From Corynebacterium sp. SCR221107 (GTDB lineage Bacteria > Actinomycetota > Actinomycetes > Mycobacteriales > Mycobacteriaceae), in the NCBI RefSeq assembly GCF_027886475.1, contig NZ_CP115670.1, positions 2,542,001 through 2,606,000 on the forward strand: a DNA stretch of 64,000 bases, read 5' to 3'. The stretch's first letter is position 1, and each line of letters opens with the position of its first letter. Of this stretch, positions 7,239 through 61,609 are shown in pieces. The translations under genes were made by a program, and so were the position numbers. A model generated the notes under the pieces. That model worked only from the letters and a program-made list of their open reading frames with translations. It had not been told where the DNA came from and did not search any database.

Positions 7239-8044
7239 GTGAACACACAACGAGAACACACCACCGCCCTCGGCGCGCGGAACCTTCATGTGGGTTATGG
7301 CGAACGCGAAATCATCACCGACCTCGATATCGCGCCGCCCACCGGTGAGCTCAGCATCCTCGTCGGCCCTAATGCCTGCGGCAAGTCCACGCTGTTGCGC
7401 GCGCTCGCCCGCGTGCTGCGTTCCCGCGGCGAGGTGTTCCTGCGCGGGCGCGACATCCGCCAGCTCAAGCCCGAGGAGATCGCGCGCGACATGGCGCTGT
7501 TGCCCCAATCCCCCACCGCCCCAGCGGGATTATCGTCCGCGACCTCGTAGGCCGCTGCCGCTATCCGCACCAGGACATCCTGGGGCGCTGGCGAGCCTCC
7601 GATGAGCAGGCGGTCGCCGAGGCTATGGAACGCGCCCATATCAGCGACCTAGCCGACAAGCGCCTCGATGAGCTCTCCGGCGGGCAGCGGCAAAGGGTGT
7701 GGCTGGCGCTGGTTTTGGCACAGCAGACCCCGATCGTCTTGCGCGACGAGCCGACCACCTACCTCGACATCACCCACCAAGTCGAGGTGCTCAATCTCGC
7801 ACGCGACCTGCAGGAATCGGGTGTGACCGTCGTGATGGTCTTGCACGAGCTGACACTGGCGTTTCGCTACGCCACCAACCTTGTTGTCATGCGCGACGGT
7901 GCCGTCGTCGCCGCCGGTGCGGTCACCGATGTGGTCACCGAATCCCTGCTTTCCGACGTCTACCAGCTCGACTGCCAGCTCATCGACAACCCCGAGACGG
8001 GGCGCCCGATCGTGGTGCCGCGCATGGGCGTCGGTAAGCACTAG
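7239..8044 (+). pseudogene. Siderophore ABC transporter ATPase (FecE-like), frameshifted
   Basis: The gene starts at GTG 7239 with GAAAGGA upstream and encodes a FepC/FecE-type ATPase. The P-loop reads GPNACGKST (usually GPNGCGKST). The reading frame breaks after LLPQSPTAP near 7525, where one base appears to be missing; the sense continues in another frame as GIIVRDLVGR, the signature LSGGQRQRVWLA, and a Walker B region VLRDEPTTYLD with Arg where Leu is expected. It ends normally at 8044. A frameshift plus changes at conserved residues point to genuine decay rather than one sequencing error. Confidence 0.85.
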
Positions 8045-8047
8045 GCC

Positions 8048-8872
8048 CTAGCCCCGTTCGGCCTCGAGGTTTTTGAAACCGATGCCGATGGGAACGCCCA
8101 CGTTATCGATGAGGCGCACCCCACCGATTGTGGCCGCGACAAAGAGCCGGCCATCGCCGTGCTCCGGTGCCTCGTCGAGGCCCAGGCTGCGCAGCTCGAC
8201 GTACTCCGGCTTCATGCCCGCAGCCTCAAGAACCTCGACGCAGGTATCGACGATAGCTTGCGGGCCGGACTCCGCCGCATACGCCCCGGCGGTCAACGCC
8301 GCGGACAGCACGAGCGCCTGCTCGCGCGCGGCGGGCTGGACCTGCCCGTTGCGCAGGGAAATCGCCACCCCGTCCGGCATCCGCACGGTGGGCACCGAGT
8401 GCACGGTGACCGGGACGTGCAGGTCAGTGACCATCCGCTGCACTCCCACCAGCAACTCATAATCCTTCTCGCCGAGGACGAGATCGCTCGGGCCCGCAAT
8501 GTGTAACAAGGTGAGGATCTGGGTGGCGGCCACCGACAGCGCTGCCGGATCCTCCATCCCATGATCGGCGAGGGTGACCGTGGTGCGCAGCCCCTTCGGC
8601 CACAAGCTCTCACGCTCGTAGCGGAAGACGGCGTCGACGCGCTCCTCGCGCAGCGCTTCATAATCGGCCGGGGTTGCGTCGTAAAGCGAAACGATGACCA
8701 CCGCGCCCGGAATCCGCCGCGCCGCGCGGATCAACGCGCGATGGCCTGCATGAACCCCGCGGGACAGTGGAACCAGCACCACCGGCTTGCCCTGCTTGCG
8801 AAACGCCCGGGAGAACATCGCGATCTGATCCGGGCTCTCGAAAACGCGCGCGCTGCCAAACTCAAAGGCCAC
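8048..8872 (-). CDS. panC: Pantothenate synthetase
   Basis: PanC joins pantoate and beta-alanine using ATP, the last step of vitamin B5 synthesis. The 274-residue protein has the HxGH nucleotide motif (GVHAGHRALI), LVLGEKDYELLVGVQRMV and the VRMPDGVAISLRN region, slightly divergent from the common form. I chose the GTG at 8872 because AAAGAGGAACC lies upstream and the homologous N-terminus begins there; a much longer open frame to 9052 overlaps the previous gene. It follows the DUF2520 gene by 43 bp and is the last gene of the leftward cluster. Confidence 0.9.
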   Translation of the reverse strand: MAFEFGSARVFESPDQIAMFSRAFRKQGKPVVLVPLSRGVHAGHRALIRAARRIPGAVVIVSLYDATPADYEALREERVDAVFRYERESLWPKGLRTTVTLADHGMEDPAALSVAATQILTLLHIAGPSDLVLGEKDYELLVGVQRMVTDLHVPVTVHSVPTVRMPDGVAISLRNGQVQPAAREQALVLSAALTAGAYAAESGPQAIVDTCVEVLEAAGMKPEYVELRSLGLDEAPEHGDGRLFVAATIGGVRLIDNVGVPIGIGFKNLEAERG

Positions 8873-8915
8873 AGATTGGTTCCTCTTTCTTTCTTGTCCT
8901 TTTTCTAGCTTGCTT

Positions 8916-9630: not shown

Positions 9631-10635
9631 TTATGTTTCCTTTTGGTTTCGCTTGAGCAGGTCTGCGACAGACACCGCGCTGGAGTGCTCGTCCCGACGC
9701 CGGCGCCCCCTCGAGACAGGGGCCTGTTCGGCTGGTGGCTCATCCACAGTCTCTTTCGCCACCTCTGCAGCGGTGGTGTCAGCCACACTCGACGTGTTCT
9801 CGGCCTCTTCCGGTTTGCGTCGCTTGCCACCAATATACGGCGAGTTCTTCGCCGCCGCAGCGGCAAGCTGCGACACCGACAGCTTCCCCTCGCCCGCGCG
9901 GTGCTCAGCCTGGGTAGCCTCCTCCTGAGCTGCGGGATCCTGCTTCACCTGTGTGACCACGGCAAACTCGGCCGTAATCGGCTTATCTGCCTTGTCTGCT
10001 TTTTCTGCCCTGTCTTGCTTGGCTGGCTTGTCTTGCTTGCCGACGCCCACCGGCTCATCAGCGCCAACGGTCACCTTGGAAATCACGGCCGTTTCTTCCG
10101 GAGAAGGGCTCGGAGCCGGCTGGGGCTGCGCCTGCGGTTTGAACACCGGTTGCTGTACCTGCTCAGCCGCGGTCTCGATCTCCATGATCCGTCGTGCCTG
10201 TGCGCGCAGCATACCCGGCTCCACCAGCGATTGGCCGGTTAGATACTCCAGTTGCTCACGCAACTCCTCGAGCTGCCGGCGAATAGCCTTGAGGGTTTCT
10301 TCCTCACTGGAGCGAATCTTGTGTTCCAGTTCGACCTGCATTGTTGCTTTATCCGCCTCGAAGCGCTGATTCGCCTCCTCCAGACGAGCCTGCCCCAGCT
10401 CTATTTCCGAGGCCAGTTGGGCTTGCGAGGCCACGGCCTGCGCGCGGTAACGGCTGACCAAAAACATGCCAAGAATAGCCGCCCACAGGGCAGCGAGCAG
10501 GGCAAGCTTCAGCGCGCCGACGCTGCCGGTAAACAGCATGACGATGCTTGCGACCAGAGCGAGAATAACGAGAACAATAAGAAGCTTCTGTCCCCGCTCA
10601 GTTGAGCTATCGTTTCGCTGATTTTCGGCACTCAT
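9631..10635 (-). CDS. DUF6779-type membrane protein with coiled coil
   Basis: A 334-residue protein with two adjacent membrane helices (about residues 17-37 and 43-62), then a long Glu/Arg/Gln-rich coiled coil (about 65-150; EELREQLEYL), a Pro/Lys/Asp-rich disordered tail and a basic patch SRGRRRRDEHSS near the end. No catalytic motif is visible. The layout matches the actinobacterial DUF6779 family, usually found in this folate/panC neighbourhood. Function unknown; the shape suggests a membrane-anchored scaffold. Confidence 0.75.
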   Translation of the reverse strand: MSAENQRNDSSTERGQKLLIVLVILALVASIVMLFTGSVGALKLALLAALWAAILGMFLVSRYRAQAVASQAQLASEIELGQARLEEANQRFEADKATMQVELEHKIRSSEEETLKAIRRQLEELREQLEYLTGQSLVEPGMLRAQARRIMEIETAAEQVQQPVFKPQAQPQPAPSPSPEETAVISKVTVGADEPVGVGKQDKPAKQDRAEKADKADKPITAEFAVVTQVKQDPAAQEEATQAEHRAGEGKLSVSQLAAAAAKNSPYIGGKRRKPEEAENTSSVADTTAAEVAKETVDEPPAEQAPVSRGRRRRDEHSSAVSVADLLKRNQKET

Positions 10636-12786: not shown

Positions 12787-13278
12787 CTACTCTACGTCGG
12801 CAAGCCTCACTCCGTCGACATCCTCTCTGGGAAGGCGGGCAATGAGGTCTGCGACTTGGCGATGTCCGAGCATCGCCTCGGGGTCTGCCTCCAGCCACGG
12901 GATCAGCACAAAGGCACGCGCATGCGCCCACGGGTGCGGCAGGATGAGCTCCGGATGGTCTGACTTGAGCATCTCACCGTCCTCGTAGGCGGTGATGATA
13001 TCAACATCGAGTGTGCGCGGACCCCAGTGTACGGTGCGCTTGCGTTCGGCGCGTTGCTCCAGCTCCTGGCAGCGACGCAGCAGCTTCATCGGGGTGGTAT
13101 CCACCTCGACGATGATGGTCGCATTGAGGAACTCCTCTTGGTCGGACACACCCCACGGAGGGGTGGAATAGACCCGAGAGCTTGCCACCAGCTCGTCCCT
13201 GAACTCCTCGAAGGCCGTCATGATGAGACCATATCGATCGTTCATGTTAGAACCAATGGACAAAACCGCTCTGAGCAT
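12787..13278 (-). CDS. folK: 6-hydroxymethyl-7,8-dihydropterin pyrophosphokinase
   Basis: FolK transfers pyrophosphate from ATP to hydroxymethyl-dihydropterin in folate synthesis. The 163-residue protein has the N-terminal LSIGSNMNDR, the pterin-binding VYSTPPWGVSDQEEFLNA and the family signature GPRTLDVDI, and ends with the usual HPWAHARAFVLIPW segment. It starts 2 bases after the folB stop, so it is part of the tightly packed folE-folP-folB-folK operon. Confidence 0.95.
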   Translation of the reverse strand: MLRAVLSIGSNMNDRYGLIMTAFEEFRDELVASSRVYSTPPWGVSDQEEFLNATIIVEVDTTPMKLLRRCQELEQRAERKRTVHWGPRTLDVDIITAYEDGEMLKSDHPELILPHPWAHARAFVLIPWLEADPEAMLGHRQVADLIARLPREDVDGVRLADVE

Positions 13279-13660: not shown

Positions 13661-14533
13661 CTACTTTCCACAATTCCAGCGTGCAGCCACGTCGACCGCA
13701 TCGCGGGAGGTAGCAACGTTGTGCACGCGCACGCACCACGCGCCCTGGGCCGCAGAAATTGCGGTCACGGCGGCGGTAGCGGGGTCGGCGGCTACGGCCG
13801 GGTTAGCGTCGGCAAGCAAGCCGCGTTCGGTGCGGATCGCCGCAAGGAAACGCTTGCGCGATGCCCCCACCAGGACCGGAAAATCGCCCTTAACGAACTC
13901 CGGCAACATTTTCAACAAAGCCCAGTTATCCTCCGCGGACTTGGCAAAGCCTAACCCCGGGTCGAGGGTAATGCGCCCCGGGGATACCCCCGCCGCCAGC
14001 GCCTGATCGACCAGCTGCGCCAGCCGGTCGCGCACATCCGCCACCACATCACCGCCATGATCGGCGTGGCCAGCCGCGTCACCGAAGCGAACGGTCTTCC
14101 AGTGCATGAGGCACACGGCCTTGTCGGTCTCGGCCATCACGCGGAACATGTCCGGATCGGCCAAACCGCCGGAAACATCATTGATAAGGGCAACCCCCGC
14201 CTCCGCCGCCGCGGCGGCAACGCTGGCGCGCATGGTATCCACCGACGTCGGAATGCCCAGCTCATGCAGCGCCGCGATGACGGGAACGACCCGGTTCTTC
14301 TCCACCTCGGCATCGACGCGGGTGGCGCCCGGCCGGGTGGACTCGCCTCCGACATCAATGATGTCGGCCCCCTCGGCAACAAGTTGGCGGGCGTGCTCGA
14401 TGGCTTTCGCCGGATCGAGATATCGCCCGCCGTCGGAGAAAGAATCCTCCGTCACATTGACAATGCCCATGACCAGGGTTCGGCCGGGCAAGGTGGTCTC
14501 AATTCCAAGGACGGGATCGCGCATGCAAGACAT
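13661..14533 (-). CDS. folP: Dihydropteroate synthase
   Basis: FolP condenses hydroxymethyl-dihydropterin pyrophosphate with p-aminobenzoate and is the sulfonamide target. The 290-residue protein carries [31 protein letters not shown], the INDVSGG strand, [14 protein letters not shown] and GASRKRF, all normal for an active enzyme. An internal ATG three codons downstream is an alternative start. It follows folE by 23 bp. One copy of the dispersed 11-mer lies inside it (13808). Confidence 0.95.
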
Positions 14534-19156: not shown

Positions 19157-20100
19157 TAGTGTTGTGCCTTTCTCCTTGCGATAACGCAAAGTTTGCCATC
19201 TTTGCGCACTATCTCCAACCTTTCGCGGGAATTTCCGCCGACCGCGACGCCACCTTGTCCGTGCCAGTCGCTGATGAGGGCTTCAATCGATTGCAGAATC
19301 GTGGCGTTGACCGCCGTGCCGTGCGCACGCAAAAACGTTAGCACTACCCGTCGCCGTATGGCGGGGTCTTGCTTTTTTAGCTTTCCGACGTCGACACTCT
19401 CGCCCTCACATACCTCGCGATAGGCCTGGTCCGCCAGCCTATCGAGCAAGGCGCGGTCCTCGGCCACAAGCTGCCCCGCCCGTGCAAGCCCCGGCACCGG
19501 ATCGAAGCCCGCGTAGGCGGCAATCTGCGGGAAGACCTCCCTGCGCAGCGCGACTCGAAGAAAGCTCGTGTCCTCGTTCATGGGGTCATCCCAATATGTA
19601 AGGCCTAGCTCGTGGCAGGCCGCCCGGGTATCGGCGCGCCGCAGGCCAAGGAAGGGGCGTGTGATCTCCCCCTTCTTAACCATCGCCGAGGCTTGCCCGC
19701 GCAGCGCGGACATGACGAGGGTCTCCGCCTGGTCGTCGGCAGTGTGTGCCACCCACAGCGGGCGGCGATCCTGCGTGGCGAGAGCCTGCAACGCCTCATA
19801 GCGCGCGGCACGCGCCTGGGCCTCGAGGTTGCCCGGCGCGACGGTGACCCGCACCACCTTTGCCCCCGCCCCGAGCGCTGTTGCCTGTTCGGCCGCACGC
19901 GCGGCCACCTCGGCGGAATCCTCTTGGAGGCCATGATCGACAATCACCGCGAGGACGTCCTTGCCCTCGGCTCTGGCCGCGGCCACGAGCGCGAGCGAGT
20001 CCGCGCCCCCGGACAGCCCGATGAGCGGGTTCGGGTCTGCAACCGCGCGCACGAAGCGTCGGCAAGCAAGAAAATGCGGGCAGTGAGCGGGCCAGAACAT
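19156..20100 (-). CDS. tilS: tRNA(Ile)-lysidine synthetase
   Basis: TilS modifies C34 of the AUA-reading tRNA-Ile with lysine. The 314-residue protein has the ATP-pyrophosphatase P-loop [10 protein letters not shown] (residues 29-38) and the [12 protein letters not shown] motif; the C-terminal half ([15 protein letters not shown]) fits the short actinobacterial form. It starts directly after the dacB stop and overlaps hpt by one base. Confidence 0.94.
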
Positions 20101-23493: not shown

Positions 23494-25242
23494 CTATCCG
23501 TTGACCCAGGCGATGAAGTTGGTGGTGCCGTCGCCTTCCAGCCCAGCCATGGTGTGACCCTGGCCCCAGATGGTGGCAAAGTCCACGTCGATGCCCTTTT
23601 GTTGCAGCGCGAGCGCGAGATTGAGCTCGACGGTGGTGGCGGTGTCGCCCTGCTTAATGCCGGTGCGGATGCGTCAGGCGGGCGCGACCGTGGAGGTGTC
23701 ATAGTCAGGGAAGGTCGAGTTGAGGAAGTACATGGGGTTGTACATGTCCTGGCGGGTGAGCACGTCCACGCCTTGGGCGTCGGTGGTCTCGAAGTCGGAA
23801 GTATATGCCGAGGCACCCAGGTCCTCGGTGAAGTCAGAGTAGGAGGTGTAGTCGGCCTTTTCCAACACGTCGCGGGAGGGTTCGGAAAAGTGCAGCAGCG
23901 AATCGGCGCCGATGCCGAGGACTGTGTTCTCGGTCTGGTTGCGGCTAGTGCCGTCGAGGGCGCCGACGTCCTTGGTGGCGCTCTTCTAGCTGTCGATGAA
24001 GCCGCGGAGGTTGTCCACGCGGGCGGTGTTGGTGGCGGCGTCGTAGATGGCCCAGGTTTCGTTCTCGTTGAGCTTGGCGACGTATTCCTCCACCGTTTGA
24101 TAGGTGGTGGTGTCCTGTTGCGCACCCATGCCCATGCCGCCACCCATGCCGCCACTCATCCCGGCCGGCGGCTCGCCGGTAGGCATCTCACCTTCTGACA
24201 TCCCGCCTGCCGCTCCGGTAGCACCCGTCATGCCGAGGCCGGTGCCCATGCCGGCCATCTGGACGTTCGACGGCGTCTAGGGGAAGGTCGTGACCTTGAG
24301 GAAGTCGTTGAGCGAGTCCTCGATGACGGAGAGGATCTTGTCGTAGTAGGTGCCAGCCAGATAGGCGCCCCCGCCGGATTGTTTCAGGGTCAGGCGAGTG
24401 GAACCGTCGGAAAGCCCCAGCCCGTTGAGGTAGTCGCCGTAAGCGTTGGCGAGGTCGAGGCTATAGGCGCGCGTCCAGGTGCCCTCGGCTCGGGTACCGG
24501 TGGAGGCGAACTGGCCCATCTGCCATTCGTAGGCGAGGTTGGCGGCGTCGGAGGTGTCCATGACCGCGCCGATGGCCGATAGGTAGGCGTTGTAGAGCTC
24601 GGAGTCGCCGGAGGCGCCCATGATGGCGGTCTGCGCGCCGCCGCCGGAGTGGCCGAAGCAGTAGAAGCGTCCCTCGTCGATGGGCAGGGCGTCGGCGTTA
24701 AAGCGCAGGAAGCGCACCGCCGCCTTGAGGTCGGTGACTCCCCAGGGGGCGTTGCCCAGGTAGCTGTCGGTCATGGAGTCTTTGCCGCGTACCCCGGCGT
24801 GGGCATAGACCAGGCCCGCCTCGATGTAGGAGGAGACGGTGTCTCAGCTGTATTCGCTCATCGGCTTTTGCGAGGCGTAGCCGGGGGTGTTGACCGGCAG
24901 CACCACCGCGGCCTTGCCCTTTGGGCTAAGGGAGAACGTGCCGTCGCCGTTGTCGGTGGCGGTGACCAGGGAGCCGGGGACGACGATCGCAAGCGTCTCA
25001 TAGTCGGGGGCTTGCGGGTGCAGGCAGTAGCTTTGGCCGATCAGGTAGTAGGCATCGTTGTCGGCATCGTGGCGCTAGGCCGCCTGGTCTAACTTCAATT
25101 CGTCGTAGTTGGCGCCGGTTGCGCTTGAGCTTGTGCTTGCCGACGAGCCTCTGTTCGATGAGCTACAGGCGGCCAGTGTGCCGGCGCCCACCACGACGGC
25201 GGAGCCGAGCAGGAAGCTGCGACGGGTAAGACGTGCGTTCAT
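23494..25242 (-). pseudogene. Tannase/feruloyl-esterase-like alpha/beta hydrolase lipoprotein with five in-frame stops
   Basis: One uninterrupted frame of ~582 codons runs from ATG 25242 (AAAGGA upstream) to TAG 23494 and is broken only by nonsense codons: TAG 25075, TGA 24844, TAG 24277, TAG 23986, TGA 23674. There is no frameshift. The N-terminus is a Tat-type lipoprotein signal (TRRSFLLG ... LAAC). The nucleophile motif is CFGHSGGGAQTAIMGASGDS and a late GQGHTMAG could supply the His. The layout resembles subtype-B tannases. A Gly/Met-rich insert lies near 24100-24240. Presumed inactive unless stops are read through. Confidence 0.82.
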
Positions 25243-26676: not shown

Positions 26677-26710
26677 TGCGGCGTGACAACGTCGGAAAGC
26701 AAAAAAGTAA

Positions 26711-32392: not shown

Positions 32393-32519
32393 GCCTTGAT
32401 TTTAGCGCCCAGCGCCAGCCAATGTTGGCTATCAATACCCCCGCTTGTGCCAGCTCACAACTTTTTCACGGTCTTCCTGTTGTTTGCTTTCCGACGCCCC
32501 CAGCTCCCCCGAACGCACC

Positions 32520-37722: not shown

Positions 37723-37800
37723 GCCTTGCCCACTACACACAAGGTAAGAAGATCATCCTTCCTGGCGCCGAAATTGACCCCTGGGGCGGGCACCGTAGGC

Positions 37801-37811
37801 GTCGGAAAGCA
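37801..37811 (+). repeat. Dispersed 11-mer CGTCGG(C/A/T)AAGC, representative intergenic copy
   Basis: One of 21 copies. Starts of the GTCGG core on the plus strand: 8030, 12796, 13808, 20058, 26691, 30729, 35390, 37801, 50362, 56083, 60236. Lower coordinate of the minus-strand copies: 10034, 25134, 29039, 31034, 32485, 36836, 47105, 48893, 51874, 56948. All copies have C before the core, and 15 also end in A. The A form is mainly intergenic, the C form mainly in coding sequence. Confidence 0.9.
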
Positions 37812-39284: not shown

Positions 39285-42200
39285 TTGCTCTTGCTCTTGC
39301 TTGCCCTCGCCGGTGCCTCCCTCATCGCCCCCTTCCTCATCCGCGCCCTCGGGCCACGTGCCTTCGGAATCATCGCGCTTGCGCCCCTGGCCGGATTCAT
39401 CTGGGTGTTAACTCACTACGCCCGCGGAACCTTCGCGGGTGGTGGCGCCCTGCACGCCAACTATGGCTGGCTGAGCAGCGCGCACCTCGATATCACCCTG
39501 CGGATGGACTCCCTCGCCGCGCTGTTTAGCCTCATCATCCTGGGCATAGGCACCCTCGTACTCATCTACTGCTGGGGCTACTTCGACGCCGCCCCGCGGC
39601 GCCTGCGCTACTTCTCGGCGCAGCTGACCGGCTTCGCCGCCGCCATGTACGGGCTGGTGATCTCCGACAACCTGCTGCTGCTCTACGTGTTCTGGGAAAT
39701 CACCTCCATCTTGTCCTTCCTGCTGGTGGGCTACTACGGCGAACGCGCCTCCTCCCGCCTGTCCGCCGAACGCGCGCTCATGGTCACCACCCTCGGCGGG
39801 TTGGCGATGCTCGTGGGCATCATCGTACTGGGGCACCAAACCGATGTGTGGACGCTCAGCGGCCTGGCAGACTACGGCCTTGAGGGAACCCACCACATCA
39901 CCTACGCCATCGTCCTTATTCTGGCCGGTGCCTTGTCCAAGTCCGCCATCGCGCCCGCGCACTTCTGGCTGCCCGGCGCGATGGCCGCCCCGACGCCGGT
40001 ATCGGCCTACCTCCACTCGGCCGCGATGGTCAAGGCCGGCATCTACCTGGTCGCCCGCATGTCCCCGGACTTCAACTTCACCCCGGTCTGGCACCTGGTG
40101 ATCTTGACCCTGGGTACGATCACGATGGTCATGGCCGGTTGGATGTCGCTGCGGCAAAAGGACCTCAAGCTGGTCTTGGCCTATGGCACCGTGAGCCAAT
40201 TGGGTTTTATCGTGTGCGTGGTGGGGATCGGATCCCGGGAGGCGCTCATGGCGGGTTTGGCGCTGACGTTCGCGCACTCGATGTTCAAGGCGGCGCTGTT
40301 TATGGTGGTCGGCGCCATCGACCACACCACCGGCACCCGCGACTGCCGGGAGCTGTCCGGCCTGGGGCGCAGGTCCCCGCTGCTGTTCGGGGTGGCTGTG
40401 GTGGCGGCGGCCTCGATGGCGGGCATCCCGCCGCTGTTTGGCTTCATTGCCAAGGAGGCCGTGTTTGAGGAGGTCTTGCACGAGCCGCTTCTGACGGGTA
40501 TGCCCGGCAAGATGCTTCTGACGGGCATGATCGTGGGCTCGGTGATGACGATGGCCTATTCGCTGCACTTCCTGCACGGGGCCTTCGCCACCAAGCCGGG
40601 GACCCACTCCTCCGGCGGCGGGACCTCTCCCGCGGTGGCGAACATGCACGCGATGCGCGCCCCGCTGTGGGTTCCGGCGCTGCTGTTGGCGTTGAGCTCC
40701 TTGGTCTTTGGCCTGTATCCGGCGGGCCTGGACTTTGTTATCGGCACCCACCTGGACTCGGTGTTTCCCGGAGAGAAGGCCACTCACCTGGCCTTGTGGC
40801 ATGGTTTCGGCGCGCCGTTGGCTATCAGCGCGTTCATCATCGTAGCGGGCTTGGTGATCTTCTGGCAGCGGGCCGTGGTGGCCAAGGCCTATTTCCAGGA
40901 GCCCGCCCTGGGCAATGCGTCGGCCGCCTATGATGCGGTCATCAGCTTCCTGCGCCATCTCTCGCTGAAGCTGACCGCCTCCACGCAGCGCGGCTCGTTG
41001 ATGCTGAACCTGGCCACGATCTTCGTGGTTTTGGTGATCACCCCGACCACCTTGCTGTTTTTGGGTGCGCGCACCGATGTGCGCATGCAGCTGTGGAACA
41101 ACCCGCTGGAGGGGGTGACGGCGGGCATCATCGTGGTGACGGCGATCGCCGCAGCGATCACCCACAACCGCCTGTCAGGCCTGCTGATGGTGGGGGCCAC
41201 CGGTTTTGCGGTTTCCTTCATCTTCGCCACTTACGGGGCACCCGACCTGGCGCTGACCCAGCTTCTGGTGGAAACCATCACCGTGGTGGTGTTCATGTTG
41301 GTGCTGCGCAAGATGCCGCCGGACACGGTGTGGCGGGCAGGGCCTAAGGCCACCCGCGCGCGGGCGTGGCTGTCGATCGCGGTGGGCGTGGCCGTGGTGG
41401 TGTTTATGGTGTTTGCCCAAAACGCGCGCACCACACAGCCGGTGTCTGTCTGGATGTCGGATCTGGCCTACGAGATCAGTCACGGCGCCAATACCGTCAA
41501 CGTGTTGCTGGTGGACATCCGTGCCTGGGATACCTTGGGCGAGATCTCCGTGCTGGTCATCGCGGCGATCGGCATTGCCTCGCTGATCTACCGCAACCGC
41601 AGCTTCGACCGCGGCTCGCGCCGACCTACCCTGCGGGTGGCGGGCAGGCGCTGGTTGGCCGTGGCTTCCTCGGCGGAAAAGCAGCGCAACCGCAGCCTGC
41701 TCGTCGACGTTTCCACCCGCGTGCTGTTTCCCTCCATGATCGTCATCTCGTTCTATTTCTTCTTCGCAGGCCACAACGCCCCCGGTGGCGGCTTCGCCGG
41801 CGGGCTGGTGGCCTCATTGGCGATCACGTTGCGCTACCTGGCGGGCGGGCGTGAGGAGCTGGAGGAGGCCTTCCCCGTGGATGCCTCCCGCGTGTTGGGC
41901 ACTGGCCTTTTGTTGTCCGTTGCTACCGCCTTGGCGCCGGTGTTGATGGGTCTGCCGGTATTGACCAGCCTGTACTACCCGCTCATGATGCCGGTCATCG
42001 GCAAGGTTTCCTTGTCGTCGGTGTTGCTTTTCGACGCCGGCGTCTACCTCATCGTCCTCGGGCTGACCATCAGGATCTTGGACACCCTGGGTGGCCAGCT
42101 CGATCAGGACGAGCAGATGCGCAAGCAGCGCGCCCGCGATCGCGCGCGCCGGCTGCGCAAGAACGCAGAAAGGCTCAAGGCCGAGAATGCGGCCCGGATG

Positions 42201-45897: not shown

Positions 45898-47184
45898 GTG
45901 CGTACTTGCCGAAGCCTGCCCACCTTGTTAATCATCGCCTGGCTATTCGCGGCCCTCGTCCTCGTCAAGGAATTCAGCCTCGATGCCTCCCAGCGCGTCT
46001 TCCAGCCCGAGCCGGTCGACCTCCAGGTCTACCGGCTGGCCGGGCAGCACCTGGCCGAGGGCGGGCAGTTGTACGCCGGCGACTTCATCCCCGGGCTGCC
46101 CTTTACCTACCCGCCGTTCGCCGGGGCCTTCTTCGAGCTTTTCACGTCCGTACCGAGCCAGGCTGCGACCTGGTTGTGGCAGGTGCTCAATTTCCTCGCC
46201 CTGGTGTGGGTGATCGCGGCCACCATGCACACCACGCTGCGGGCCAGCATGGGCACCTGGGCACTGGCGGTGGGCCTGGCCGTTGCCTCATTCGGACTCG
46301 ATTCCATTCACGGCAGCTTCTATTTCGGTCAGATCAACGTGGTGCTCATGGCGTTGGTGGCGCTGGATTTCTTGCCCCGGCGCACCTTCGGCGGGGTGGG
46401 CGTGGGGCTTGCCGCCGGCATGAAGCTCACACCTGCGTTTTTCATCGTGGTCTTTCTCGCCCAGGGCCGCTACCTCGCCGCCGCCGTCGCTGTGGTGACC
46501 TTCCTCATCACGGTGGGCATCGGCTTTGCCACCATCCCGGATGCGGGGCAGTTTTGGACCCAGGCGATCTCCGATTCCTCGCGGGTGGGCACCCACGATA
46601 ATCCCGGCGCGCAGTCGCTGTTGTCGGTGCTCACACGGGTTTTCGAGCAGCCCAGCCAGCTGGTGTGGCTGCTGGCCGTGGCCGTGACGGTGGCCTTGGT
46701 GTGGTCGGCTGCGCGCGCAGCCCGGCGCAATCACAGCCCCGGGTGGGCGCTGGGGCTAGGTGGCATAGGTGCGTGCCTGGTCTCGCCTTTTACGTGGTTC
46801 CACCATTGGGTGTGGCTGGTGCCGGTGCTGGTGTCCTTGCTGCTTAGCCTCGATGGGCTGGGCAACGCGGTGCTGGGGCGTGCGGGGACCGGGGTGGTAT
46901 CGGGCACGGCATTATCCCCGCTTGCGCGCGGGTTGTCTCAGCTGGTGGGGCTTTTGGCCCTTGGGGTGTGCGCGGTGGTGGCGTTGCCGCAGGTGACCGC
47001 GGCGCTATCCCCCGACTGGAGTTTCTTCGCGCATGCGCAGACCCCCACCGACCCACGCAACGCGCTGTTCGTCGGCGTCGGCGTGGTGCTGTTGGTCGGC
47101 TATGTGCTTGCCGACGTCGCCCGCGCCGCACTTCGCCGCGGTACGCAGGCGGCCGCAGCCTCCGCCGTGGCCGGGGCCGTGTGA
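45898..47184 (+). CDS. GT87-family (DUF2029) polyprenol-phosphate glycosyltransferase
   Basis: A 428-residue polytopic membrane glycosyltransferase of the GT-C type. An acidic motif in the first loop (PEPVDLQVYRLAGQHLAEGG) and FTYPPFAGAFF, GQINVVLMALV and FTWFHHWVWLVPV match mycobacterial/corynebacterial DUF2029 enzymes, which use polyprenyl-phosphomannose to build lipomannan/lipoarabinomannan or related glycans. The acceptor cannot be told from sequence. It converges with the next gene, 4 bp apart. Confidence 0.85.
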   Translation: MRTCRSLPTLLIIAWLFAALVLVKEFSLDASQRVFQPEPVDLQVYRLAGQHLAEGGQLYAGDFIPGLPFTYPPFAGAFFELFTSVPSQAATWLWQVLNFLALVWVIAATMHTTLRASMGTWALAVGLAVASFGLDSIHGSFYFGQINVVLMALVALDFLPRRTFGGVGVGLAAGMKLTPAFFIVVFLAQGRYLAAAVAVVTFLITVGIGFATIPDAGQFWTQAISDSSRVGTHDNPGAQSLLSVLTRVFEQPSQLVWLLAVAVTVALVWSAARAARRNHSPGWALGLGGIGACLVSPFTWFHHWVWLVPVLVSLLLSLDGLGNAVLGRAGTGVVSGTALSPLARGLSQLVGLLALGVCAVVALPQVTAALSPDWSFFAHAQTPTDPRNALFVGVGVVLLVGYVLADVARAALRRGTQAAAASAVAGAV

Positions 47185-48550: not shown

Positions 48551-49204
48551 CTAGTTGACGGTGGTTTCGGTCGCCAGGACCAGCACGAGGGAGTTCGGCG
48601 AATCGGTGCCCGCGGGCAGGTCGTCCGGGCGGACAGCGGCAACGCCACCGACGCGGTCGGCCAGTTCACGGGCGGCCTGCTCGGCGGCGGCGTTGCCCGC
48701 CGGGAAGTACACGGTGTTTTCCGGGACCACGTCGTCGGCGTAGTTGCCGACCTCGCCCGGGGTGAACCCCTTCGCCTTGAGCTGGTCTGCCACATCGGCC
48801 GCCAAACCTTGGACGGTGGAGTTATTGAGCACGTGGACGGTGGTGTAGTCGCTGGCCTGGCCGGCGGTGGCGTTCGGGGCGGCCGCAGCCGGGCTTGCCG
48901 ACGCCGCCGCGCCGTCAGTGCTTCCTGCCGAAGCGGCCGCGGCGCTAGGCGCTGTGGCCGGGGCTGATGCACTGCCCGTAGCCTGCTGCCCGGCGGCCGG
49001 GGTGGCTGCGGCCGGGGTATTGGTGGCGTTGACGGTCACGTCCTGGGCGTTGTCATCACGAGTCATGGAGTAGGCACCCCATGCGGCCAGCAACAAGGCG
49101 ACGGCGATTAAGATCATCGCCATCCCGCGCAGGGGCAGACCCTGAGCCTGGTCCGGAGTCTGTTCAGGATTTTGGTCAGTCACATCAGTCACACTGGTTA
49201 TCAT
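48551..49204 (-). CDS. LytR C-terminal domain membrane protein
   Basis: About 217 residues: a short cytoplasmic N-terminus, one membrane helix (about 27-46), a long Ala/Ser/Thr/Pro-rich linker, and a C-terminal LytR_C domain (TTVHVLNNSTVQGLAADVADQL ... NTVYFPAGNAAAEQAARELAD). Such proteins act in cell-wall assembly, often as partners of LCP ligases. Start uncertain: ATG 49204 overlaps TATGAT, a good -10 box that ends 7 bases before GTG 49192, so leaderless initiation at 49192 is quite possible. Confidence 0.82.
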   Translation of the reverse strand: MITSVTDVTDQNPEQTPDQAQGLPLRGMAMILIAVALLLAAWGAYSMTRDDNAQDVTVNATNTPAAATPAAGQQATGSASAPATAPSAAAASAGSTDGAAASASPAAAAPNATAGQASDYTTVHVLNNSTVQGLAADVADQLKAKGFTPGEVGNYADDVVPENTVYFPAGNAAAEQAARELADRVGGVAAVRPDDLPAGTDSPNSLVLVLATETTVN

Positions 49205-50008: not shown

Positions 50009-50383
50009 GGCCAGAAGTAGAGCGCGCATTCTTCGTATCAACGGGCAAGCAGTTCGCTTAGCTGTGTGGCGCTGGTGTAGCAGCTGACGCATTGCCTGCG
50101 ATGGGACGGAAAATGCTAGGCAGGCTCGCTGCCACGATGTCTTTCATCCCACAGTGTGGCTTACCGACGAATCTGCAGTAGGTCGCCCCAGCGATTACGG
50201 GAGGTGCCGACGAAAGACGAGCCCTGGCTGCCTCAGCGAGCGGCATCATAGCGGCGCCAAACTCATCGCCTTTGCGCCGCTCGCGTTCGTGTGAGGCGGG
50301 AATAGACACGCTCATGCGCACCGCTGTCGTGCCTATTCTGTTTAAGTCGGGCACCGTGGTCGTCGGAAAGCAAGCGCGGTGCT
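50009..50383. other. Intergenic region upstream of def
   Basis: About 375 bp with no supported gene; open frames on both strands lack family matches and ribosome sites. It contains one dispersed 11-mer (50362-50372). It may include unrecognisable remains of the DUF6308 gene. Confidence 0.45.
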
Positions 50384-51043: not shown

Positions 51044-52056
51044 TGGAACAACACCCCGCCTCTCCCCGGTCGCGCATCTTTCGCTCCGATGATGTCCACC
51101 CCGGCGAGCGGGTGGTCATCCGCCGCGTGATCGACGGCCAGCACTCCGATGTCATCGGCCACGTCGTCGACCTCAACGAAAAGGAGCTGGTGGTGCGCCC
51201 GCAGGCCGTCGGCGGCTTCCCCTCCGCGCTGGCCGAGGTCCGGATCCCACGCGCTCAGGTCTACGTGGTCAAAAAGCTCAGCCCGCGGCGGGTGCGTAAC
51301 TCGGAGATCCGCGACATCGAACTCGCCTATTCGGAGGCCTTCCCCGGCATCGAGCACACCTGGGCCAGCGATGGCCAGTGGCTGCTGCGCGCCGGCGATG
51401 GCATTACGGAGCGTTCCAATTCGGCCGCGCCGCTGGGCCGCTCGGCGGTGTTTACGCCGGTGCCGGTGGCCGAGATTAAGGCGTTCTACGCCCGCCACAA
51501 GCTGCCGCCGAGGGTGCTCATCCCGGAGCGCATCGGCAAGCAGGCCGAGCAGCTAGCCAAGGATCACGGCTGGGAGCTGGGCCCGGAGATCATCGTGATG
51601 ACCCGCGAGCTCACCGACTTGCCCACACCCGATGAGCGCGCGGAGTTTCGCATCGATGAGCAGCCGGATCGCGCCTGGCTCGGCCTCTATCACTTCCGCG
51701 GCAAACCGCTGCCGGAGCACGCGCTGAACCTGCTTCGCGAGCGCATCAATGGCCAGATGGGCTTCGGCCGCCTGGTCGATGAGACAGGCGAGACCATCGC
51801 AATTACCCGCGGCACGATTACCTCCGCAGGCAGCAGGCAGTATTTGGGGTATTCCGCGGTCGAGGTTGCGCACGCTTTCCGACGCCAAGGTTACGGGACC
51901 CAATTAGGCATCCACATGTTGTCCTGGGGCGCTGCCTGCGGTGCGACCACCGCGTATCTCCAGGTCATCGCCAGTAATTCCGCTGGCATCGGCCTCTATG
52001 AGAAGCTGGGCTTTATCGAGCACCATCGGCACCGCTACGCAACGATCACCACCTAG
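51043..52056 (+). CDS. N-acetylglutamate synthase, CG3035 family
   Basis: A 337-residue GNAT acetyltransferase. The acetyl-CoA loop is FRRQGYGTQLG near residue 285, and the end EKLGFIEHHRHRYA is typical of GNAT. An N-terminal SH3-like region (HVVDLNEKELVVRPQ) precedes it. C. glutamicum Cg3035, shown to be an N-acetylglutamate synthase for arginine synthesis, has this size and also follows def. Coupled to def through TAATG overlap. Confidence 0.86.
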   Translation: MEQHPASPRSRIFRSDDVHPGERVVIRRVIDGQHSDVIGHVVDLNEKELVVRPQAVGGFPSALAEVRIPRAQVYVVKKLSPRRVRNSEIRDIELAYSEAFPGIEHTWASDGQWLLRAGDGITERSNSAAPLGRSAVFTPVPVAEIKAFYARHKLPPRVLIPERIGKQAEQLAKDHGWELGPEIIVMTRELTDLPTPDERAEFRIDEQPDRAWLGLYHFRGKPLPEHALNLLRERINGQMGFGRLVDETGETIAITRGTITSAGSRQYLGYSAVEVAHAFRRQGYGTQLGIHMLSWGAACGATTAYLQVIASNSAGIGLYEKLGFIEHHRHRYATITT

Positions 52057-54412: not shown

Positions 54413-54420
54413 CTGACGTG

Positions 54421-54488: not shown

Positions 54489-54505
54489 GGCTTAACAACC
54501 GCGTG

Positions 54506-55884: not shown

Positions 55885-55894
55885 CCTTAATATA

Positions 55895-56135
55895 CGGCGC
55901 ACGCCTTAGCCTTCGCTAACCTAAGCCACACCCGTAAGCGTTACTGTCTAGCGGGTTTGGCAGTGGATACGGGAAATTTCTTCACGCTTGAGCGCTGGGA
56001 TAAGTTTGAATCAATAGGCAATCGCTTTTCCAACCCCGCCGACACACGGCAGCCGTGCCCGGTTCCTACGGCCGCGGTGGACGTCGGAAAGCATGCTCAC
56101 TCAAGGGCAATTCGGGCAGAAAGGAGCAGGTATTC
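55895..56135. other. Intergenic region upstream of nptA
   Basis: About 240 bp that probably contain the nptA promoter. One dispersed 11-mer copy lies at 56083-56093. No gene is seen. Confidence 0.4.
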
Positions 56136-57359
56136 ATGTCGTATTCGACGTCGCGGACCGAGGCTCTTGACCCCCATGCCCCCGAGCAATCCGCGGATAT
56201 CATCCACGGTGAGCACGGCGATGTCATCGACATCGACCCGGCCGAGCTCAAAGGCCAGGTTGCATGGACCCGGCAAGGCGCGGCCGCCAACTGGGTGGCC
56301 ATCCTAGCCATGTTCGTCTGCATGGCCTTCGGCCTGCATTTCGTCGTCGACTCCCTGGCCACGCTTTTTCCTGCCGTCCAGGCCTTCATTAACACCAGCG
56401 AGATGTCCTCCTTCAAGGCGCTGGCCGCCGGCATGCTGGCCACCACCTTGCTGCAGTCGTCCTCCGCGGTCACCGTGGGCTTGGTCTACAGCACCGCGAT
56501 GGGGCTGATTTCCCCGCAGGAGTCGATCCCGGCGGTGTTCGGCGCGAACATCGCCACCACCTTCACCCCGATGATCTTGGCCTTGTGGATCAGTGGCCGC
56601 CACAAGCGCCGCCATTCCCGCCGCGCCTACCAGGTGGTTTTTACCCATGTGTGGTTCAACATTTTGGGCGTTGCAAGCCTCCTGCCCATCGAGCTGCTAT
56701 TTCATCCGTTGTCAAAGATCGCCTCCCGGCTGGTTCAACCAGTCAACGCCTTTGTTGCCTCCGAGCAGATTCTCCAGACGCTTTCCGTCCATTACTGGGG
56801 CCAACAGCTGACCATGAACTCCGGGTTAATGTGGGTGGAATTGATCGGCGGGTGCGTGCTCACCGTAGTTGCAATGAAGGCATTGCAGGAGCGCTTCCAT
56901 GCCCTCGTTCGCGGCACCGGCTTCCCCATCCTTGCGCGCAGCGGTGGGCTTTCCGACGTCGCTGGCCTCACGTTGGGCGTCGGCGCCACGATGGCCACCG
57001 GCTTTTCCTCAGCCACCGTCACCGCCACCGCCACCGCCCGAGCCACCGGCTCGCTGTATCGCCCGGCGGTCATGCCGATAGTCATGGGCGCCAACATCGG
57101 CACCACCCTCACCGGCATCTTGGTGGCGCTGGGCATTGACGATCAAACAGGCGCGCTAGCCCTGCACGTGGCCCTGGTGCACCTGCTGTTCAACCTCACC
57201 GGCACCCTTCTTGTGCTGCTGTTGCCCTTCCTGCGCCACTTCATCGCCTGGCTTGCCGATCACTGCGCTGCCTCATTTTCCCGCCACCCCATCATGGGCA
57301 TCGCGCTCATGTTGCTCATCGCCTGGGTGCTCCCATACCTCATTATCCGGTTTGCTTAG
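56136..57359 (+). CDS. nptA: Na+/phosphate cotransporter family protein (NptA-like)
   Basis: A 407-residue membrane protein of the Na/Pi-cotransporter (PF02690) type. The first repeat has LLQSSSAVTVGLVYSTAMG. The second repeat has TGFSSATVTATATA, where the usual Gln-Ser-Ser is replaced by Phe-Ser-Ser. GANIATTFTP and GANIGTTLTG are the paired conserved loops. It starts at ATG 56136 with AAAGGAG upstream. The first ~45 residues are an acidic cytoplasmic tail. Confidence 0.9.
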   Translation: MSYSTSRTEALDPHAPEQSADIIHGEHGDVIDIDPAELKGQVAWTRQGAAANWVAILAMFVCMAFGLHFVVDSLATLFPAVQAFINTSEMSSFKALAAGMLATTLLQSSSAVTVGLVYSTAMGLISPQESIPAVFGANIATTFTPMILALWISGRHKRRHSRRAYQVVFTHVWFNILGVASLLPIELLFHPLSKIASRLVQPVNAFVASEQILQTLSVHYWGQQLTMNSGLMWVELIGGCVLTVVAMKALQERFHALVRGTGFPILARSGGLSDVAGLTLGVGATMATGFSSATVTATATARATGSLYRPAVMPIVMGANIGTTLTGILVALGIDDQTGALALHVALVHLLFNLTGTLLVLLLPFLRHFIAWLADHCAASFSRHPIMGIALMLLIAWVLPYLIIRFA

Positions 57360-59357: not shown

Positions 59358-59409
59358 GCCAACCAGTGTGACATATTTTCGCCCCTGGTGCCTTGGAGAG
59401 CCGGGTTCC

Positions 59410-59937
59410 TTAATTGAGGTAGTCGAGCAACAGCTGTTTGACCTTAGGCCACGAGGCCGCGAACGCCGGCATGAGCTTCAACTGCGCCACCTCGTCTAAG
59501 GCGACCCAGCGCAGCTCGTGGGACTCCTCGTTGGGATGGGTTTCCAACTGATGCGGTGCGCGTGCGAAAACGGTGGTGTAGGTCCACTGCCCGGCAAGCT
59601 CCGGGCGGTCGGGATCGGCCGGAAACGGGCCCGCCGTGACCGCTTGCCCCAAGACTTCATAGGAGTCGGGGTAAATTTCAGTCTCTTCTGCGACCTCGCG
59701 CCCGGCGGCCTGGCGGGCATCCTCGCTCGCCTCCCGCGCACCACCGGGCAGCGCCCAGGTGTCCCCGTGCGAGGTCCACGCGGCGCGGTGCTGCATGAGG
59801 ATCGTCCAGGAATCGCCAGCCCGGGCCACGAGGGCGAGTCCGGCGGCGCCGTGGCGTCCCCACATGCGGGTACCGCCGGGCCCTGCCGCCCACCCCTCGC
59901 CGTGGCTAGCCGAGTGAAGACTTTCGATTCCAGACAT
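59410..59937 (-). CDS. Nudix hydrolase
   Basis: A 175-residue Nudix protein; the box is GGAREASEDARQAAGREVAEET (residues 65-86) with the expected REVAEE core. The start at ATG 59937 has AAAGG upstream; an internal ATG ~24 codons later would also keep the domain. Substrate unknown, probably a nucleoside diphosphate derivative. It is divergent from glnX. Confidence 0.88.
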   Translation of the reverse strand: MSGIESLHSASHGEGWAAGPGGTRMWGRHGAAGLALVARAGDSWTILMQHRAAWTSHGDTWALPGGAREASEDARQAAGREVAEETEIYPDSYEVLGQAVTAGPFPADPDRPELAGQWTYTTVFARAPHQLETHPNEESHELRWVALDEVAQLKLMPAFAASWPKVKQLLLDYLN

Positions 59938-60031
59938 ACCTTTAGCATAAGCTGCCCACGACAAAGCCACCGCGATATGCTTGGTGAGAACCTATTAACG
60001 CACCTTTTAATTCAGCCAAGGCTATAAATAC

Positions 60032-61609
60032 ATGCCCGAGATGCCTGCAATACCCGATATCCCCGAGGATGCGGAGGACGTGGAGTACGGTCAGCGCGTT
60101 TCCCGCGAGGACCGCAATAGCTTCAGCCCCGGTGTGGGCACGCCCACCGGGGACTTCATCCTGCACACCTTGAGCCCGGTGCGTGCGGTGCCCACCAATG
60201 CCGAAGACAATTGGATGGATCGCATCTCGGAACGTCGGCAAGCAAGACGCAACTTCTGGCAAGAGCTCTGGCACGACTCCATCACCATGCCGGTGGAGTG
60301 GGCGCTGCGCTTCGGCCGCTTCCTGCGCACCACCCCGGGGCGGATGACGCTGATGGTCGTAGTGGTCTCCATGGCCGTCATCGCCGCAGGAATCTCCATG
60401 TCACAGACCTCCGCGCAACGCCGCGCGGACCTAGAGACCTTGATGAATAACACGGAGCCGGTGAGCTTTACCGCCCACCGCCTCTATACCTCCTTGTCGC
60501 TGGCGGACACCACGGCGACGGTGGGGTTTGTGCGCTCGTCGGTGCAGTCGGAATACACCCGCACCCGCTACAGCCTGGCCTACCAGGATGCCGCCGCGGC
60601 GGCCGCCGAGACTGCCTCGGGTATCTCCACCGACAACGAGCACGCCCTCGCGCTTATCACCAAGATCAATAAGCTGCTGCCCACCTACACCGGCCTAGTG
60701 GAGACCGCCTGGGCGAATAACCGCCAGGACAACCCCGTGGGCGTGGCCTACCTGTCCGAGGCCAACGCGCTCATGCGCAACGAGATCCTGCCCGCGGCCA
60801 ACGAACTGTATTCGATGATGTCGCGGGAGGTGGTCACCAGCCAGCGCTCGCTGACCACCCCGCTGTGGATCCCGTTGTCGGGCATGTTTGCCGCGCTGGG
60901 CTTTTTGGTGCTGGCGCAGTTGTGGCTGGCGCAGGTCACCCACCGCCGCCTCAATCGGGGATTTTTGACCGCCACCATCCTCATGGCTTTCATCACCACC
61001 TGGGTCACCACCGCCAATGCGATCACCTGGCGCACCGGCTCGCAGGCCTACGAGGAAGCCTCCGCGCCGCTGGAGATGCTGACCAATGCGAGGATCCAGG
61101 CGCAGCAGGCGCGTACCGATGAAACGCTCGCCTTGGTTCGTCGTGAAGCAGACGATGCGGGCACGTTCACAACGGCGGCCAACGCAGTCGACGACGCCCT
61201 CGATGCCTTCGACGCCTCCTTTTTGGCCGACACGGGTGAAAACCCGCAGCAGCTGGCCAACGCGCGGCTGGCACTGGAGCAATGGCGCTCAAGCCACATG
61301 CAACTGGTGGAAACGCTCAATAACGGAGACTATGACACCGCGCTGACGTTGACGCTCGGCGAGGGGCAAGGGATCGACTCCGCCGGGGTTGGCACCACGC
61401 AAGCAGGTGAGAGTTCAGCGACCGCCTACGCGAAGATGGATGATGAGCTCGCCAGCATGGTCGGTGATACCCGCTCCACCCTGCGCGCGTATATCGACAA
61501 GGGCGCCAACGCCTCCCGGTTTGTGTCCATGGTGATGCTCATCTTGTCCTTCCTCTCCGTGATTTCTATGTGGGTAGGCATCCGCCCCAGGCTGCAGGAG
61601 TACCTCTAA
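60032..61609 (+). CDS. glnX: GlnX-like membrane protein
   Basis: A 525-residue protein with an N-terminal cytoplasmic region, one helix near 98-118, a large extracytoplasmic domain, two close helices (about 275-298 and 306-328), a second extracytoplasmic domain and a last helix near 500-518. In corynebacteria and mycobacteria GlnX passes the signal of external amino acids from lipoprotein GlnH to kinase PknG. Gene order glnX-glnH-pknG matches. The stop overlaps the glnH start (TAATG). A TATAAA box lies 3 bases before the ATG. Confidence 0.88.
   Translation: MPEMPAIPDIPEDAEDVEYGQRVSREDRNSFSPGVGTPTGDFILHTLSPVRAVPTNAEDNWMDRISERRQARRNFWQELWHDSITMPVEWALRFGRFLRTTPGRMTLMVVVVSMAVIAAGISMSQTSAQRRADLETLMNNTEPVSFTAHRLYTSLSLADTTATVGFVRSSVQSEYTRTRYSLAYQDAAAAAAETASGISTDNEHALALITKINKLLPTYTGLVETAWANNRQDNPVGVAYLSEANALMRNEILPAANELYSMMSREVVTSQRSLTTPLWIPLSGMFAALGFLVLAQLWLAQVTHRRLNRGFLTATILMAFITTWVTTANAITWRTGSQAYEEASAPLEMLTNARIQAQQARTDETLALVRREADDAGTFTTAANAVDDALDAFDASFLADTGENPQQLANARLALEQWRSSHMQLVETLNNGDYDTALTLTLGEGQGIDSAGVGTTQAGESSATAYAKMDDELASMVGDTRSTLRAYIDKGANASRFVSMVMLILSFLSVISMWVGIRPRLQEYL

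Follow-up and report, generated by a model that had tools for sequence, protein, structure and literature searches.

What is the role of an 11-nucleotide word, CGTCGGHAAGC, which recurs on both strands throughout the 64,000-nucleotide stretch of Corynebacterium DNA analysed here (the window)? The initial annotation, made from the sequence alone, listed 21 copies, all of which were found within two bases of the places given. Together with five overlooked copies, the true count is 26 exact copies in the window, 12 of them on the plus and 14 on the minus strand (A form: 11; C form: 12; T form: 3; Table 1), compared to a chance expectation of 0.21 (100 dinucleotide shuffles; largest shuffle: 2). 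Two of the overlooked copies (6175 and 7948, both minus) lie before 8 kb, where none had been thought to occur, while the apparent gap between 38 and 47 kb is indeed empty of the CGTCGG form, but is ordinary by spacing and holds a CGTCGAAAAGC copy at 42026. A likeness to DNA uptake sequences had also been proposed, and this is the reading that survived testing. The word displays computable marks of such a sequence, namely high copy number, confinement to the genus among the sampled members of the order, conservation at the DNA level, strand neutrality, rare neighbours, dialects and a site-by-site dialect difference. As such, we consider CGTCGRHAAGC to be a DNA uptake sequence of Corynebacterium with a probability of roughly 0.78.

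Table 1. Copies of the word and its sister form in the window, with gene context according to a crude codon-usage caller.
Copy	Position	Strand	Context	Remark
CGTCGGTAAGC	6175..6185	-	in called gene, antisense	overlooked initially
CGTCGGAAAGC	7948..7958	-	in called gene, antisense	overlooked initially
CGTCGGTAAGC	8029..8039	+	end of called gene, sense	
CGTCGGCAAGC	10035..10045	-	in called gene, sense	
CGTCGGCAAGC	12795..12805	+	in called gene, antisense	
CGTCGGCAAGC	13807..13817	+	in called gene, antisense	
CGTCGGAAAGC	19380..19390	-	in called gene, sense	overlooked initially
CGTCGGCAAGC	20057..20067	+	intergenic	
CGTCGGAAAGC	24405..24415	+	in called gene, antisense	overlooked initially
CGTCGGCAAGC	25135..25145	-	intergenic by crude caller	
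CGTCGGAAAGC	26690..26700	+	intergenic	
CGTCGGCAAGC	29039..29049	-	in called gene, antisense	
CGTCGGCAAGC	30728..30738	+	in called gene, sense	
CGTCGGCAAGC	31034..31044	-	in called gene, antisense	
CGTCGGAAAGC	32486..32496	-	intergenic	
CGTCGGCAAGC	35389..35399	+	intergenic by crude caller	
CGTCGGAAAGC	36837..36847	-	intergenic	
CGTCGGAAAGC	37800..37810	+	intergenic	
CGTCGAAAAGC	42026..42036	-	in called gene, antisense	sister form (position 6 = A)
CGTCGGCAAGC	47106..47116	-	in called gene, antisense	
CGTCGGCAAGC	48893..48903	-	in called gene, sense	
CGTCGGTAAGC	50159..50169	-	intergenic	overlooked initially
CGTCGGAAAGC	50361..50371	+	intergenic	
CGTCGGAAAGC	51874..51884	-	in called gene, antisense	
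CGTCGGAAAGC	56082..56092	+	intergenic	
CGTCGGAAAGC	56948..56958	-	in called gene, antisense	
CGTCGGCAAGC	60233..60243	+	in called gene, sense	

The 3.04 Mb source genome (labelled G000 in the genus set) harbors 942 copies of CGTCGGHAAGC, mostly as CGTCGGMAAGC (461/481 by strand; reversed control: 20), and 1,158 copies, or about 380 per Mb, when the sister form CGTCGAHAAGC is added. A 464 kb sample of this genome contains 155 copies, with 1.7 to 4.8 expected under Markov models of orders 2 to 5. The genome-wide count suggested as a check by the initial annotation thus lies far above a Markov expectation, and explanation by a single gene family also failed. The 150 gaps between copies in this sample average 2.8 kb and are distributed near-exponentially (CV: 1.03), no more evenly than random, with four gaps over 10 kb observed and 4.1 expected. 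Copies of the full word in the G000 sample number 163 versus 1 to 19 one-base neighbours per position, position 6 being the tolerant exception with 66 neighbour copies. At intergenic copies the word is embedded in a longer site of about 25 bp, approximately GGnCCkGTRRR-CGTCGGMAAGC-AAR.

Among 201 Corynebacterium genomes, 139 carry CGTCGRHAAGC (CG dialect; 68 to 1,458 copies; median: 622), 13 carry the dialect CATCGRHAAGC (CA) and 49 carry neither, the last class having at most 42 CG copies. CA genomes aside, the sole genome between 42 and 150 CG copies is the intermediate G129 (68 copies). Both dialects are found in G143 (739 CA and 171 CG copies), while G073 and G200 are weak CA cases (131 and 128 CA copies, respectively) and G084, with 90 CA copies, was placed in the neither class. 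Outside the genus, the word is near background in the 149 genomes sampled from 55 further genera of this order. In nine of the 49 word-less genomes (G014, G030, G062, G132, G133, G147, G152, G162 and G180), k-mer scans made de novo on 60-200 kb of each revealed no clear related word. Single-position variants are sparse in the scanned genomes, the top one, CG[ACG]CGG[ACT]AAGC, occurring 9 times per 100 kb in G014 and 8 in G133, and 3.5 times in G000.

The dialects follow phylogeny, since a TadA tree covering 60 genomes out of the 201 requires six Fitch changes, compared to a mean of 17.7 and a minimum of 13 in 500 shuffles. The G004 group, which has the CG dialect, keeps a surplus of 62-91 CA copies, whereas the remaining 132 CG genomes have a median of 23, with four of them reaching 62. 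A CA clade excluding the G004 group was rejected (delta logL: 240.5 against; 16 genomes, with replicates too few for a reliable AU test), and the trees are most simply read as a change from CA to CG in this group.

This change can be followed at homologous sites of G004 (CG) and G006 (CA). The eight constrained core bases are kept in 21/28 aligned words versus 22.7% of background windows, and 19 of these 21 sites carry the other dialect, so that opposite-dialect words occupy identical places with homologous flanks. As G/A change at position 2 is also common in non-motif CGTCG words (83 changed, 105 kept), the switch was compared with this ratio rather than with zero (19:2 versus 83:105; Fisher p: 4e-5). 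Sites also turn over, with 15/48 aligned CA words of G006 lacking an intact core in G004. The alternative that survives these data best, itself unlikely, is that the word is bound by a protein acting along the whole chromosome (a nucleoid, condensation or repair factor), with single sites under selection. Hundreds of copies per genome, the extended site and the core kept above background are all compatible with such a protein, but a quarter of the genus sample (49/201) lacks the word, sites are lost as described, and selection site by site would require hundreds of sites to change base together. We furthermore know of no corynebacterial chromosome-wide factor of this kind. The nucleoid-protein site entertained by the initial annotation is less likely than the uptake sequence it also proposed.

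A second alternative is a polar signal of the Chi or KOPS kind, to be recognised by a translocase or by an AdnAB-type nuclease acting on DNA ends. In its favour are the high copy number and non-palindromic nature of the word. This alternative is very improbable because the strands are balanced, with CGG-form totals of 13,506 and 13,401 over the 139 CG genomes, and no replichore bias is observed in 464 kb of G000 (72 leading by GC skew, 83 lagging). The earlier dismissal of a strand-biased segregation signal is upheld by these totals, which also disfavour a polar version of the recombination hotspot suggested at the same time. PDDEXK_1 nuclease domains (AdnAB-type, counted at the domain level) are present in 201/201 genomes, word-less ones included, which again speaks against such a reader. 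Being universal, these domains are uninformative on word presence.

The conserved entity is the DNA word and not a peptide, as had been surmised from the window. Leucine is encoded by CTT in 12.6% of cases overall in the G000 sample (crude calls), but in 39/49 cases in (G)L-A-D(G) and 28/33 in (G)L-S-D(G) contexts, or 80-85%, while without one flanking G the CTT share is only 7 to 44%. Of the 155 copies in the 464 kb sample, 66 are intergenic, whereas intergenic sequence accounts for 22% of the sample, an enrichment of about twofold. In-gene copies favour a single antisense frame (65/89), where several frames had been reported initially. Both intergenic enrichment and a preferred frame and strand are described for known uptake sequences (PMC2346458, in part). 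All intergenic shares are rough, because the gene caller, based on codon usage and with a coding fraction of about 0.78, is a crude one. With this caller, the A form, described as mostly intergenic (6 of 8), is so for 6/11 copies in the window and for 33/66 in the sample. The C form, of which 11 of 12 copies had initially been placed inside genes, has an intergenic share of 3/12 in the window and 31/82 in the sample, and the T form is intergenic in 1/3 and 2/7 cases, respectively. It is scarcely credible that the word is a by-product of codon usage, of a common peptide (Leu-Ala-Asp or Leu-Ser-Asp) or of CpG mutation with CG/CA drift. The single antisense frame and the frequent change of CGTCG to CATCG elsewhere agree with such an origin, but it is contradicted by the CTT contexts, by the copies outside called genes with their extended site, by the lack of excess in the sampled other genera, and by the second CpG (positions 4-5), which is constant in the kept cores of both dialects. 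The change most simply read from the trees, CA to CG, moreover runs opposite to CpG decay. Just as implausible is a dispersed mobile repeat (REP/MITE-like) or shared gene family, since similarity does extend around the intergenic copies but fades some 12 bases before the word and 3-4 bases after it. The word, not being palindromic, shows no inverted-repeat or unit structure with definite ends, and its copies are randomly spaced over both strands and occupy various genes, with other-dialect words at the same place between homologous flanks.

Genes for comEA and comEC, which the initial annotation proposed should be sought, are present in G000 and the relatives examined, as is a tad cluster. The machinery survey comprised ComEC, ComEA, the Tad ATPase and the Tad minor pilin TIGR03816. 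ComEC is found in 200/201 genus genomes, with ComEA at 20/20 ComEC loci examined, while the Tad ATPase (TIGR03819) exceeds the cut-off in 192/201 and TIGR03816 has a match in 200/201, over the cut-off in 193. Since ComEC, the Tad ATPase and the minor pilin are almost universal, no tested machinery gene explains the 49 word-less genomes, and machinery presence was rejected as the cause of word presence. The two do not track each other across the 201 genomes, and such tracking is no defining feature in the cited families; the link between word and uptake machinery is thus a putative one. When Flp, TadE-like, Rv3654c-like and ComEA proteins from species of the two dialects were aligned, no residues obviously specific to one dialect were seen. 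Long ComEC open frames (at least 640 aa) occur in 15/30 word-less versus 12/120 other genomes (Fisher p: 4e-6), an association which, based on 150 listed of the 201 genomes, on open frame rather than gene length and uncorrected for phylogeny, is a lead only. Counted by eye, 29/49 word-less and 8/152 word-bearing genomes have either no TIGR03819 match or a best one weaker than 1e-126; several of the latter eight are fragmented assemblies. Searches against genome contigs confirmed no relative with a single ComEC protein query, and with a TadA alignment gave one Corynebacterium locus among the 80 kept.

We infer uptake, its link to the pilus and a receptor from these genomes as follows. Word-bearing fragments would be favoured by a DNA receptor on the cell surface, for which a minor subunit of the Tad (Flp) pilus is the most plausible candidate, and the pilus would draw them through the envelope. 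ComEA and ComEC would then pass one strand inside, where homologous recombination would replace the resident allele. Since good copies would let a fragment enter more often, the word would build up on both strands wherever coding permits, through molecular drive, and a changed receptor preference would rewrite copies in place, giving rise to dialects. A limited literature search found no Corynebacterium uptake or transformation, nor any report of the word. With somewhat less assurance than for the uptake function itself, we suggest that this probably represents a third, independently evolved uptake sequence system, with no precedent in the Actinomycetota or anywhere else beyond the Neisseriaceae and Pasteurellaceae, probably read by the Tad pilus, in which the dialect changed more than once with hundreds of sites rewritten in place, and which about a quarter of the sampled species lack.

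Corynebacterium is of importance in industry, on the skin and in the clinic. If the uptake reading is true, it points to widespread unrecognised natural transformation in the genus, and laboratory or industrial strains now regarded as hard to modify may prove transformable with donor DNA that carries the appropriate dialect. Furthermore, the sister pair of the G004 and G006 groups would allow a one-base dialect change to be tied to a receptor change.

Several known systems invite comparison. HIP1 of cyanobacteria is likewise a very abundant, lineage-wide short word, but is palindromic, unlike that of Corynebacterium. Chi and KOPS are overrepresented short non-palindromic words oriented along replichores, whereas the Corynebacterium word has no orientation bias relative to replication or origin-terminus polarity. 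According to part of a recent account (PMC12616744, 2025), the use of genomic words to recognise self DNA is known from only two families, both proteobacterial; a third case, in the Actinomycetota, would mean that a preference for self DNA in uptake arose on more than one occasion. Micrococcus luteus, also an actinobacterium with comEA, comEC and tad genes, needs these for transformation (PMC4322843, in part), and the terms 'uptake sequence' and 'sequence-specific' are absent from the main text of that paper. The DUS of the Neisseriaceae, whose receptor is ComP, comprises eight phylogeny-following dialects, mostly one or a few bases apart around a constant core (PMC3630211, in part). The Corynebacterium word resembles it in high copy number and in phylogeny-following dialects of this kind, and differs in its unrelated sequence, its host phylum and the presence of a tad cluster and ComEA/ComEC in the host. 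The USS of the Pasteurellaceae has a core of about 9 nt within a longer, weaker site, two dialects and a density of roughly 200-800 per Mb (PMC12616744, in part), and shows one preferred orientation in reading frames with no general orientation bias in the genome (PMC2346458, in part). The Corynebacterium word, although unrelated to it in sequence, shares with the USS as so described the core within a longer site, the two dialects, a similar density, the orientation preference in reading frames and the lack of such a preference over the genome as a whole.

The word CGTCGGHAAGC is present in 26 exact copies in the window, against an expectation of 0.21. Each of the 21 places listed in the initial annotation is real, and five further copies had been overlooked; copies also lie in the first 8 kb, which had been described as empty, and the gap reported between 38 and 47 kb is nothing unusual, being what is expected of randomly spaced sites. 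The 8-mers with the strongest excess in the window include GATGAGCA/TGCTCATC (26 copies; 2.8 expected, order 2) and GTCGATGA (25 copies; 3.7 expected). Across the whole single-contig genome of Corynebacterium sp. SCR221107 (3,043,024 bases) there are 942 copies, 461 forward and 481 reverse, against 20 for the reversed control, in which the pattern is read backwards; a sister form, in which position 6 is A, contributes 216 more. For a 464 kb sample of this genome, Markov models of orders 2 to 5 predict 1.7 to 4.8 copies, and 155 are present. One-base neighbours are scarce: full words number 163, and each position yields 1 to 19 neighbours, the exception being position 6 (66).

In this genome the GC skew lies above zero in the blocks at 200, 800 and 1,400 kb, and below zero in that at 2,000 kb and in the window. 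With strands assigned on this basis, 72 copies in the sample belong to the leading strand and 83 to the lagging one, and the CGG-form totals in 139 Corynebacterium genomes are 13,506 and 13,401; this lack of strand or replichore polarity argues against Chi-like and segregation words. A shared peptide is not the cause. According to a crude gene caller, 65 of the 89 in-gene copies in the sample are antisense in a single frame, where the gene reads xxG-CTT-GCC/TCC-GAC-Gxx (Leu-Ala/Ser-Asp). Of all leucine codons, 12.6% are CTT. The share is 7-44% in Leu-Ala/Ser-Asp contexts where a flanking G is missing (the 44% being 4/9), and where both flanking Gs complete the word it reaches 39/49 for Leu-Ala-Asp and 28/33 for Leu-Ser-Asp. 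The word is therefore maintained at the level of DNA. The 66 intergenic copies, as delimited by the same crude caller, sit in a longer site, with approximately GGnCCkGTRRR 5′ of the core and AAR 3′.

The count of CGTCGRHAAGC, which combines both forms, is two-state across 201 Corynebacterium genomes. In 139 the range is 68 to 1,458 copies, with a median of 622. A further 49 carry at most 42, and at most 50 of the form CATCGRHAAGC, except for one genome (G084) with 90 of the latter. In the remaining 13 genomes this CA form takes the place of the CG form, with 519-817 copies in eleven and 131 and 128 in the other two. Among the 139 CG genomes, 115 have more copies with A at position 6 than with G; in eight, SCR221107 among them, the G form is more than twice as frequent as the A form. 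The combined pattern CRTCGRHAAGC is near background in 149 genomes from 55 other genera of the same order, where, on reading the table by eye, the highest ratios to the reversed control are approximately 3.4 (65 vs 19, G224) and 154 vs 46 (G281), and the highest count is 183, with a control of 137 (G204). The corresponding values in SCR221107 are 1,211 and 47.

The two dialects differ at homologous sites. An alignment of 200 kb each from a CG species (G004) and a CA species (G006) spans 119 kb with an identity of 80%. At 21 of 28 aligned G004 words (background windows, 22.7%), G006 keeps the eight constrained core bases, and at 19 of these 21 sites it has A at position 2. At non-motif CGTCG sites of G004 whose remainder is kept, G006 shows CATCG 83 times and CGTCG 105 times, a split that differs from the 19:2 at the words (Fisher p 4e-5); the change is frequent outside the motif too, yet far from complete there. 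In the reverse direction, of the 33 CA words of G006 whose core is kept, 30 show G in G004, against 84 G and 343 A at non-motif CATCG sites; at the other 15 of the 48 CA words, G004 lacks an intact core. The pattern CGTCG[CT]HAAGC is also raised in G004 (L331-L340), with 13.5 copies per 100 kb where 13 other sampled genomes have 0-3.5, and position 6 may be freer in its group.

Trees were built from TadA (60 genus genomes and four outgroups) and from seven concatenated Tad/Com proteins (16 genomes; modest support of 69-76 at some inner nodes), and both place the G004 group, which has the CG dialect, among the CA genomes. Requiring the CA genomes to form a single clade that excludes this group costs 240 log-likelihood units, with the AU replicates flagged as too few. 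Leftover CA copies number 62-91 in this group, while the other 132 CG genomes have a median of 23 and four reach 62. The simplest history is a change from CG to CA and later back to CG in the G004 group; two independent changes from CG to CA are a possible alternative.

The genome of SCR221107 contains an actinobacterial tad cluster, in which Ssd (TIGR03815), TadA (TIGR03819) and the TIGR03816 pilin exceed their cut-offs. The TadE-like protein, at 37.8 bits, falls slightly below the NF041390 cut-off of 40; TadB-, TadC-like and Flp-like proteins were assigned by position and reading, and no NCBIfam model matched the Flp-like protein. Both comEA (TIGR00426) and comEC (TIGR00360) are present, the latter encoding a short form of 468 amino acids. 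ComEC open frames span approximately 450 to 810 amino acids across the genus, and among the genomes listed those of at least 640 are commoner without the word (15/30) than with it (12/120). According to PMC4322843, transformation of Micrococcus luteus requires tad and com genes, a combination described there as common in actinobacteria.

Among the genomes without the word, other repeats were observed (table below). A CRISPR-like array, presumably type I-E-like, is found in G180, palindromic unit clusters in G133, and short repeats, probably a repetitive coding region, in G062.

Coordinates of the window, comEC and other repeats
Feature	Location	Positions	Details
Window	SCR221107, NZ_CP115670.1	2,542,001-2,606,000	
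ComEC frame	SCR221107, L152	10646-12052	
CRISPR-like array	G180:C17, L170 (joined L168-L170)	~53,791-57,023	~53 repeats, 61-base period, unit includes CCCGCGTGAGCGGGG
Palindromic clusters (examples)	G133, L132-L134 (joined L131-L135)	38,269-39,044; 72,166-72,818	units ~125 bases apart, palindrome like CCCAAGCGATGCACGTGCATCGCTTGGG
Short repeats	G062:C13, L164 (joined L163-L167)	~24,724-25,240	multiples of 12 bases (CCGGAGCCCAC...)

Those marks of an uptake sequence that can be computed are present, apart from co-occurrence with the machinery and an identified receptor. Across the 201 genomes its presence does not follow that of the Tad/Com machinery; these families are near-universal in the genus, nevertheless 49 genomes are without the word, and the families therefore cannot account for its absence, which is the chief weakness of the uptake reading. 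Alignments of Flp, TadE-like, Rv3654c-like and ComEA proteins from CG and CA species showed no clear residue differences tied to dialect, and no receptor emerged. Either receptor specificity or the competent state has been lost in the 49 genomes, or the word has another reader. The strongest rival to the uptake reading is a protein that binds throughout the chromosome. It would require simultaneous selection at hundreds of sites for each change of dialect, and a quarter of the species sampled would have to do without its site. We suggest that molecular drive from word-preferring DNA uptake is the most likely mechanism: the Tad pilus and ComEC would take up word-bearing DNA preferentially, and the word would accumulate as a consequence.

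No account of the word in Corynebacterium appeared among the matches listed from the open literature, where one match brings up natural competence only for Streptococcus and another only in the title of a cited work; the matches listed for the literal 11-mers included no title on repeats or Corynebacterium. Eight dialects are described for the Neisseriaceae in PMC3630211. According to PMC2346458, known uptake sequences show a favoured orientation within reading frames and no general orientation bias in the genome, and the Corynebacterium word resembles them in being frame-oriented within genes and unoriented genome-wide.
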